DNA of 64,000 bases, from positions 1 through 64,000 of the IMG/VR virus record IMGVR_UViG_3300036945_000620; one strand, given 5' to 3'. This DNA is from a virus. Each line of letters opens with the position of its first letter. The first letter of the stretch is position 1. A model generated the notes under the pieces. It did not search any database. It was not told the DNA's origin and was given only the letters and a program-made list of their open reading frames with translations. Both the position numbers and the translations under genes were made by a program. Below, one piece after another: positions 3,501-15,150 of the stretch.

Positions 3501-3881
3501 TTAACCATAAATCCATTCTTTCGGTCGTCGCTCCGCGAACGGGGTCATCGAATGCACGATGGCCGTGTTGCTGGCGCGCGGTTCGATCATGACACAATGA
3601 CCGCCGCGAATTGTCAGCCCGCCGCCCTTCTCATAGTTGCGCGAGACTTCCAGATAATCCTCGAACGATGGCCCGAAACGGAATCGGATCGTCGCGTGTT
3701 CGAGAATGGGCCGCGCAGGATCGTCGCCATAGCCGACGATTGTGTTCCGCGTCAATTCATCCGCGACGCCAAGCTGCTCGTCCAGACGGTCGCGCAGGCT
3801 CTTTTCGTTGCGCTCCATCGACTCGATGTGCGTCTGCCACTTCTTAGGCAAACGCTCGAACCCGTCCGGCCTGATCATCAT
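3501..3881 (-). CDS. Unknown phage protein, about 126 aa
   Basis: N-terminal helix with heptad-like charge (LPKKWQTHIESMERNEKSLR) then a beta-rich part with IRFRFGPSFEDYLEVSRNY, a layout common in uncharacterised phage proteins. Start placed at the ATG that overlaps the stop of the gene at 3878-4282 (ATGA); a TTG four codons earlier is possible. Co-transcribed with the gene at 3878-4282. Function unknown. Confidence 0.75.
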   Translation of the reverse strand: MMIRPDGFERLPKKWQTHIESMERNEKSLRDRLDEQLGVADELTRNTIVGYGDDPARPILEHATIRFRFGPSFEDYLEVSRNYEKGGGLTIRGGHCVMIEPRASNTAIVHSMTPFAERRPKEWIYG

Positions 3882-4282
3882 GATCTGATCCAATACGTGA
3901 CGCCGTCAAAATCGACCGACGTATAATCTTGCTGCAACTCTTCCGCCGCCTGTTTCCAGTCGATGCACGTCTGCGGCCATGACGCATTGCTGTCAATCGC
4001 GCCGATGTCATCGGCGAATTCACGCGCCCAGCGTTCGAAGTGAGAGTCGCGTATCAGCGCCTCGCCATGATGCCAGTCGGCGCAACCTTCGGCTTCTTCC
4101 GCCAGCGCCAGAAGCGCCGTCAGCTCTTCCTGCTCTTCCGTCATATCGACGCCGTTAACCATGAAACCTTCTTCGGTTTCTTCGCCGCCGTCCAGCTCTT
4201 CCTGTAGCTGCTCGATCTTTTCGATCACGTCGCGGCTGTCGATGATGTCGTCGCCGTTCGAGATGTTGATTCTGCGGGCCAT
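3878..4282 (-). CDS. Acidic protein of a widespread phage/plasmid family, 134 aa
   Basis: Very acidic (EELDGGEETEEGF, EEQEELTALLALAEEAEG). It ends in SVDFDGVTYWIRS, preceded by LIRDSHFERWAREFADDIGA and a WPQTCIDW segment. I recall this C-terminal pattern from many phage and plasmid hypothetical proteins; no biochemical role is known to me. The charge would suit a DNA-mimic or anti-restriction role, but that is only a guess. ATG at 4282 is preceded by GGAGAGTTTCAGA. A sigma-54-like site lies 33 bases upstream. Overlaps the downstream gene by 4 bases. Confidence 0.8.
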   Translation of the reverse strand: MARRINISNGDDIIDSRDVIEKIEQLQEELDGGEETEEGFMVNGVDMTEEQEELTALLALAEEAEGCADWHHGEALIRDSHFERWAREFADDIGAIDSNASWPQTCIDWKQAAEELQQDYTSVDFDGVTYWIRS

Positions 4283-4315
4283 TCTGAAACTCTCCGGTTG
4301 ATGTAGTCCAATCAA

Positions 4316-5964: not shown

Positions 5965-6171
5965 TTACCGGGGCTCGATCTCGAATTCCATCCGGTGCTT
6001 GGCGCGTCCCTTGTTGAGACTTTCGCACGTCAGGTCAGCATCGCCGTCGTCGCGCTTGTAAACCTTAGCGCGGTCCCGGAATTGCGTAAACGCTTCCTGT
6101 CCCTGCTTGCCGGTGTAGTACAGGACGCGGCCCGACTTGATGTCGGTGCCGCGCAAAATACTGTTAGCCAC
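5965..6171 (-). CDS. Unknown small protein, 68 aa, GTG start
   Basis: Basic and soluble (GRVLYYTGKQGQEAFTQFRD, then KRDDGDADLTCESLNKGRAK). GTG start three bases after the previous stop, with AAGGGAC just upstream. Not recognised. Confidence 0.7.
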   Translation of the reverse strand: MANSILRGTDIKSGRVLYYTGKQGQEAFTQFRDRAKVYKRDDGDADLTCESLNKGRAKHRMEFEIEPR

Positions 6172-6174
6172 GTT

Positions 6175-6582
6175 CTAGTCCCTTTCGATCTTCTTCACTT
6201 CCACGGTGAACCCGGCGATCATCAGCTCGCGCCGGACGTTCTGCGCCGTCGATTCGTCATCCGTCTGGACAATGCACTGTGACACAAGTTTGCCGTCGCG
6301 CAATCCCTCGACCATGTCCTTTGCATCTTTCAGGCCGTAGTTCGCGCCCCAGTGGCGGATTGCCTTGATGCCGTCGATCAGCCGCGCGCCGTCGTGGTTC
6401 GTGATGATGACGCGATACAGCACAGCCGCGCCATACACTTCATTGGCAAGCTCTTCGGCCCATTTCTGTAGACCGTTCTGGATCATGACCGCCAGCAGAG
6501 GGTCCGCCTCGCCGATGGCCGGTTGCAGCATCTTGCGCTCGCGGATCATGCGGCGGATGAAGTCGTCGCGTGTCAAAAGCAT
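6175..6582 (-). CDS. Protein with ribosomal L7/L12 C-terminal-like domain, 135 aa
   Basis: The last 65 residues align by eye with the C-terminal domain of ribosomal stalk protein L7/L12: IKAIRHWGANYGLKDAKDMV corresponds to the conserved vIKavReaTGLGLKEAKdlV helix pair, and the end AGFTVEVKK to aGAeVEVK. That domain recruits translation GTPases. The N-terminal 70 residues (helical) are unrelated to L7/L12. Known: small L7/L12-like domains occur in various non-ribosomal bacterial and phage proteins. Inference: it may contact host elongation factors or the stalk. ATG at 6582; a TTG overlapping the previous stop is an alternative. Confidence 0.8.
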   Translation of the reverse strand: MLLTRDDFIRRMIRERKMLQPAIGEADPLLAVMIQNGLQKWAEELANEVYGAAVLYRVIITNHDGARLIDGIKAIRHWGANYGLKDAKDMVEGLRDGKLVSQCIVQTDDESTAQNVRRELMIAGFTVEVKKIERD

Positions 6583-6587
6583 CTGGT

Positions 6588-6821
6588 TCAATCCATTACG
6601 TCAAAGGTTGCATCGTCCGGCAGGCCGTGGATCGTGGCGACTTCGCTCACGGTCACGCCGTCCGGTTCGTCGCCGTCGCTCTCGATGTTGAGCGTGGCGA
6701 ATGTGGGCTTCGCGTGCGTGCCGACGTACGCCAGCGCCTTGCTCAGCGCCTCGCCTTCCGACTCCGCTTTGATGTAGAGCGTGGCCCAGACGGGCACGTC
6801 AACAGAGTATTCCAGTGTCAC
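6588..6821 (-). CDS. Unknown small protein, 77 aa, GTG start
   Basis: Beta-alpha pattern: VPVWATLYIKAESEGEALSK resembles small phage proteins with a strand followed by a helix. The C-terminus is acidic (DGDEPDGV). GTG start overlaps the stop of the previous gene (GTGA). Not recognised. Confidence 0.75.
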   Translation of the reverse strand: MTLEYSVDVPVWATLYIKAESEGEALSKALAYVGTHAKPTFATLNIESDGDEPDGVTVSEVATIHGLPDDATFDVMD

Positions 6822-15073: not shown

Positions 15074-15150
15074 GGGCGGGTAGCTCAGTTGGGAAGAGCG
15101 CGCGATCGATAATCGCGAGGTCGCGGGTTCGATTCCCGCCCCGCCTACCA
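15074..15150 (+). tRNA. tRNA-Ile (anticodon GAT), CCA encoded
   Basis: Full cloverleaf of 77 bases: acceptor GGGCGGG/CCCGCCT, D-stem GCTC/GAGC, anticodon stem CGCGA/TCGCG with loop TCGATAA, five-base variable loop, T-arm GCGGG-TTCGATT-CCCGC, then A-CCA. By canonical numbering the anticodon is GAT (Ile). Position 33 is C rather than the near-universal U, and bases 32 and 38 can pair, which would shrink the loop. Phage tRNAs commonly supplement host decoding; this oddity makes its activity uncertain. Confidence 0.88.

Follow-up and report, generated by a model that had tools for sequence, protein, structure and literature searches.

Results

The gene and its genomic setting

The window analysed in this study, a stretch of 64,000 bases, is part of a 78,869-base virus record which carries genes for terminase, portal, tape measure and tail proteins as well as for a DNA polymerase, a helicase and a ribonucleotide reductase. 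Because of this gene content, the virus is considered to be a long-tailed phage. Its portal protein is about 40% identical to the portals of Bordetella phage FP1, which is classified under Mesyanzhinovviridae, and of others. Within a cluster of small genes lies the gene of interest, which encodes a protein of 135 amino acids termed P0001. A first-pass annotation had placed a phage protein at 6175-6582 with no strand stated; its coordinates and the phage assignment were right, and the coding strand is the minus strand, since on the plus strand these positions are not spanned by an open frame. The features of the region are as follows (window positions):

5965..6171, minus strand: downstream neighbour gene, 68 amino acids, conserved, with a 79% identical relative at the same place in the related fragment
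6175..6582, minus strand: P0001 gene, 135 amino acids, ATG at 6582, stop codon 6177-6175, relative with about 49% identity
6184..6423, minus strand: P0001 residues 54-133, bL12 C-terminal domain (PF00542, AlphaFold model, 1ctf match)
6292..6393, minus strand: P0001 residues 64-97, two-helix hairpin, equivalent of the L12 factor-docking face, best-conserved stretch
6424..6582, minus strand: P0001 residues 1-53, N-terminal part, AlphaFold helices of low confidence, no PF16320 match
6588..6821, minus strand: upstream neighbour gene, 77 amino acids, with 5 bases between its end and the P0001 start codon

The 77-aa gene and the P0001 gene likely form one transcription unit. For the 77-aa gene, no counterpart was detected in the related fragment at E ≤ 1e-3, and a PHROG search with the 68-aa gene gave no match at E ≤ 0.01. 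Another protein of the small-gene cluster (3881-4315, minus strand) matched phrog_25535 of unknown function with E 9.4e-33 and, weakly, the anti-restriction family phrog_2059 (E 2.3e-4). Between about 9100 and 14800 of the window, the G+C content is 0.52-0.55 compared with about 0.60, and this stretch is nearly free of frames of at least 150 amino acids; a tRNA-Ile gene is located just past it at 15074-15150.

Conservation in a related phage

The relative of P0001 was reached via records with a related portal and not by a query with P0001 itself. It is encoded on one related phage fragment (L044; 44,868 bases; portal 91% identical), where it occupies the same gene order and shares 49% identity with P0001 over 129 aligned residues. 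For comparison of the surrounding region, 21 minus-strand frames between 1.7 and 9.1 kb were picked, two of which overlap, so that not all of them can be genes; 13 of these 21 frames, P0001 included, have a relative in L044 and the order is kept. The remaining two of the three portal-related records, short fragments with lengths of 6.9 and 8.8 kb, lack the P0001 gene in the part covered. The P0001 family comprises the two members known in this analysis.

Identity between the two proteins is distributed unevenly, with 15 of 50 residues identical in the N-terminus, 23 of 34 in the hairpin and 20 of 38 in the later residues; over the bL12 domain, 48 of 82 residues agree. At the DNA level, the two genes differ at codon positions 1, 2 and 3 in 45, 33 and 71 of 132 codons, respectively, a pattern to be expected if the gene is kept for its protein. 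Judged from these two sequences, the P0001 gene is conserved as a protein, and the hairpin most strongly.

Further searches were carried out with several types of query. P0001 itself gave no relative among the viral contigs, where the search patterns missed the divergent relative, and an alignment of both sequences recovered only the L044 contig again. Against genome contigs, the same alignment yielded 275 candidate stretches, none of which was confirmed. By tblastn of P0001 against 50,697 phage records, nothing was obtained at E ≤ 0.01 nor at E ≤ 10. Two weak tblastn matches to plasmids (E 0.3 and 0.6) and three phage records from a nucleotide search of the P0001 region, covering 1% of the query, were disregarded.

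Identification of a bL12 C-terminal domain

PF00542 matched P0001 residues 57-130 with 28.7 bits (E 1.6e-6), compared with the curated cut-off (gathering score) of 25.9 bits, and this was the single PF00542 match in the whole virus record. The relative alone reached 23.5 bits and is thus slightly under this cut-off. With a separate L12 profile of nine sequences, built from the L12 of E. coli and eight L12 sequences of viral contigs, from which P0001 and its relative had been left out, the scores were 30.1 bits for P0001 and 26.4 bits for the relative, as against a best score of 7.5 bits among 2,000 shuffled versions of the C-terminal part. Among PDB sequences, the best phmmer matches of P0001 were L7/L12 proteins, at a weak E of about 0.1; a profile of the two sequences gave L7/L12 in the top nine rows with E 0.003-0.03. 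By these sequence comparisons, the L12-like resemblance of P0001 is well above chance. Compared with E. coli L12, P0001 has one extra residue between the hairpin helices and a longer stretch past the second helix.

Two PHROG families of unknown function, phrog_26927 and phrog_5819, weakly match the P0001 hairpin (E 0.014 and 0.03). The former matches the relative with E 0.0018, and a Streptomyces phage protein (P0002) and a viral protein (P0005) matched better. These matches extend over no more than 32-48 residues, in contrast to the complete domain of P0001.

Predicted structure

The input alignment for AlphaFold consisted of P0001 and its relative only and contained no L12 sequence. In the resulting model, residues 54-133 are arranged in the order strand-helix-helix-strand-helix-strand (strands 54-63, 102-107 and 125-133; helices 68-78, 84-96 and 110-122). 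The ten-residue blocks between residues 51 and 130 have pLDDT values of mostly about 82-94. The top structural matches of the model were L12 domains. All 68 of 68 residues of the E. coli L7/L12 domain 1ctf were aligned with Z 11.0, an rmsd of 1.7 Å and 34% identity, and the best bacterial L12 structure rows showed 31-34% identity with rmsd values of 1.7-2.3.

ClpS chains ranked next in the fold comparison (Z about 9-10, rmsd 2.6-3.0, identity 8-15%), headed by 9ayn with Z 10.2, rmsd 2.8 and 77 aligned residues. Being less than 1 Z unit below 1ctf, they are tied with L12 on this measure, and the viral structure matches of P0001 include phage proteins named ClpS. Where Z ties, sequence decides: identity and family match assign P0001 to L12 rather than to ClpS, as PF02617 (ClpS) did not hit the virus record at E ≤ 10 in a search that found this family in 8 of 14 control genomes. 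The domain of P0001 is therefore closely similar in fold to the ClpS adaptor and differs from it by low identity and the missing family match.

In the N-terminal part, AlphaFold placed helices at residues 5-16, 28-35 and 39-50, with mean pLDDT values of 46-61 in ten-residue blocks 1 to 5. A search for the L12 N-terminal domain responsible for dimerisation and uL10 binding (PF16320) left the virus record without any match at E ≤ 10, whereas 13 of 14 control genomes were positive. Between the two parts, no obvious hinge separates helix 39-50 from strand 54-63, at low confidence of the model in this region. Residues 1-53 are predicted with low confidence and may contain an analogue of the L12 N-terminal domain at the structural level.

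Taken together, P0001 combines a bL12 C-terminal domain with a mostly helical N-terminus of a different kind, and the domain call is well supported. The first-pass annotation had described an L7/L12-like domain in the C-terminal 65 residues, joined to an unrelated helical N-terminus and containing the factor-docking helix GLKDAKDMV, and had proposed a profile and structure search against L7/L12. Both searches agree with it, as PF00542 scores over its cut-off and the AlphaFold model matches 1ctf. The motif (residues 83-91) is indeed located within the L12-type docking hairpin, and the mostly helical model of the N-terminus fits the description. The stated extent was somewhat too short, since the domain takes up about residues 54-133 (80 residues) in the model.

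Residues of the factor-docking face

In bacterial L12, the N-terminal domain serves as anchor on uL10, all translational GTPases dock on the C-terminal domain, and this domain alone suffices for factor contact. L12 factor binding was reportedly studied by Helgstrand in 2007. In addition to the lysines of the docking face, we take Ile69 and Arg73 to be factor-contact positions. P0001 and its relative both have Ile69, Lys70, Arg73, Lys81 and Lys84 (E. coli numbering), while the position of Lys65 is occupied by Leu or Met; hence, five of six contact residues are kept. Arg, Arg and Val occupy this position in three further viral proteins that have a full domain but lack an L12 N-terminus. PMC10602876 names K65, K70, K81 and K84 as conserved, gives the C-terminal domain as the sole part of L12 needed for factor contact and reports weaker EF-Tu binding upon changes of Lys65 or Lys70. 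Since Lys65 is absent in both family members, EF-Tu binding by P0001 may be weak or lost. This lowers the confidence in EF-Tu as a target and argues against a plain L12 copy; the hairpin residues may also be conserved because the fold needs them.

Hairpin-only proteins in viral sequences

An exact DNA motif encoding the second L12 helix picked out 33 loci, and a longer motif added four viral loci, among them that of the P0001 relative already known; together these are 37 loci (L006-L038 and L042-L045) with 33 distinct proteins. In genome contigs, the longer motif gave no loci. The frames at these loci may not all be genes, those of L034 and L038 being doubtful, and bacterial DNA may be present in viral contigs. 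When aligned to the L12 profile, 12 of the 33 proteins have the whole bL12 domain, namely eight with an L12-like N-terminus, three with other N-termini and the P0001 relative. A hairpin of only 25-35 residues on unrelated scaffolds was assigned to 19 of the 33 and two were unclear, a split that is a reading of aligned ranges in a motif-biased set; L038 and L020/L036 were left unclassified.

In 10 of the 19 hairpin-only proteins, the motif is situated within 10 residues of the C-terminus. The hairpin count is biased by the selection with this motif, which also means that Lys81 and Lys84 are kept by construction. At positions outside the motif, Lys is found at 65 in 13 of 19, Lys or Arg at 70 in 18 of 19 and Arg or Lys at 73 in 17 of 19, with the offset of L016 being approximate owing to an insert. 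When one hairpin was compared with phage records at E ≤ 1, 66 matched, 44 of them from Streptomyces phages and most named hypothetical protein. In P0002 of Streptomyces phage Daubenski, the Pfam L12 match covers model positions 3-37 of 67. A single-sequence fold of the hairpin-only protein L010 gave two long helices (pLDDT about 72, pTM 0.41) and was uninformative on the hairpin.

Some further proteins were observed in the course of these searches. By eye, L024 appears to contain two L12-type hairpins, one in the middle and one at the C-terminus. A 232,937-base virus record (G005) has three PF00542 matches over the cut-off (L056, L057 and L051/L058), two of these proteins being of the hairpin type. 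Enterobacter phage vB_Ecl_SABI (PQ864023.1) encodes a full-type L12 domain (L055, 58.7 bits) inside a protein which PHROGs files as RIIB lysis inhibitor.

A description of the hairpin-only pattern as such was not found in our limited literature search, from which we make no strong claim. The idea that the L12 docking face is a portable phage module, with the hairpin repeatedly joined to unrelated proteins to grip host translational GTPases and with P0001 as a fuller, off-ribosome version, is speculative and on balance unlikely to hold.

Discussion

Relation to known phage bL12 proteins

Phage proteins of this kind were published in 2019. Mizuno et al. describe seven cultivated phages, along with uncultivated ones, that encode bL12 domains, often within larger, otherwise unrelated proteins, with conserved EF-G/EF-Tu contact residues and a likely role in translation takeover (PMC6375957). 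Mass spectrometry of 70S fractions from E. coli detected the bL12 of Salmonella phage FSL SP-076; the matched protein has 418 amino acids, about 15% of which is the bL12 domain, and is thus not a full L12 (PMC6375957). The same study did not succeed in purifying tagged viral bL12 ribosomes, and it left the function of phage bL12 in infection open (PMC6375957). Phage bL12 was taken up by Al-Shayeb et al. 2020, where L7/L12 is listed among the translation genes of huge phages (PMC7162821), and two genes of Streptomyces phage Riptide are annotated as L7/L12 C-terminus domain (PMC12509530). The suggestion of the first-pass annotation that such a takeover route had not been described for phages therefore does not hold, and P0001 is a real new example of a phage bL12 protein, not a new phenomenon.

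P0001 shares with the phage proteins of 2019 the bL12 C-terminal domain, the variable genomic context, the unrelated fusion sequence and largely kept contact residues; unlike them, it has its own N-terminus and phage lineage, as judged from the tblastn search of 50,697 phage records without a match at E ≤ 10, and is missing Lys65. Its C-terminal domain resembles bacterial bL12 (L7/L12) in sequence and fold; in contrast to bacterial bL12, P0001 has no recognised N-terminal dimerisation and uL10-binding domain, and position 65 is Leu or Met in the two family members.

Possible roles of P0001

The translation-factor reading of P0001 put forward by the first-pass annotation, a soluble decoy that could redirect or inhibit these factors, is plausible and not new. 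In the form that we favour, tentatively and at somewhat less than an even chance, P0001 would be a soluble early or auxiliary phage protein with a captured bL12 domain, which acts off the stalk and binds one or more host translational GTPases. The phage would have captured the bL12 C-terminal domain and placed it on a different helical N-terminus; away from the stalk, its two-helix face would bind EF-G, IF2, RF3 or EF-Tu, and this binding would either compete with the stalk or bring the factor to a partner of the N-terminus, to the benefit of the phage. This reading is favoured because the docking domain is placed on another N-terminus without a known stalk anchor. It draws further on the L12 match in sequence and fold, on the conservation of the hairpin and its contact residues in both family members and on the precedent of bL12 domains in unrelated phage proteins (PMC6375957); the loss of Lys65, the structural closeness to ClpS and the small size of the family speak against it. 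As no L12 N-terminal domain is recognisable, we infer a decoy rather than a stalk replacement. Incorporation into the stalk in place of the host bL12 dimer, altering factor recruitment for phage messages, has been proposed for other phage bL12 proteins, and by analogy the detection of the FSL SP-076 protein in 70S fractions would speak for it, though that protein is not a full L12 (PMC6375957). For P0001 we regard this as quite improbable in view of the missing PF16320 match at E ≤ 10, the model with no obvious hinge, at low confidence, and the failed purification of tagged viral bL12 ribosomes (PMC6375957).

A re-purposed L12 domain, in which the fold was kept for another phage or host partner and translation factors are not the target, is somewhat unlikely in our judgement. 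It would account for the loss of Lys65 in both members and for the extra residue and longer stretch around the second helix, and the RIIB-like protein of vB_Ecl_SABI places an L12 domain in a context without known tie to translation; against it, the factor-contact face is the best-conserved part and retains Ile69, Lys70, Arg73, Lys81 and Lys84. That P0001 is ordinary variable cargo of the small-gene cluster with no measurable effect on translation appears very unlikely. The cluster does vary between the two phages, where 13 of the 21 picked frames have a relative, and two of the three near portal-relative records, both short fragments, are without the gene in the part covered, but the single related fragment covering the region conserves it at the protein level. 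An adaptor like ClpS, which would direct host proteins towards the Clp protease or keep them from it, was set aside as highly improbable despite the tie in Z and the phage ClpS-named proteins among the viral structure matches, given its lower identity to P0001, larger rmsd and the absence of a PF02617 match at E ≤ 10.

If P0001 indeed acts as a soluble factor-binding protein, a free phage copy of the L12 domain could act on initiation, elongation and release together, because all translational GTPases dock on this domain. With P0001, the known phage bL12 proteins gain a further lineage and a further fusion partner. Should binding to EF-G or EF-Tu require no more than the hairpin, this would provide a likely target for many unnamed phage proteins.
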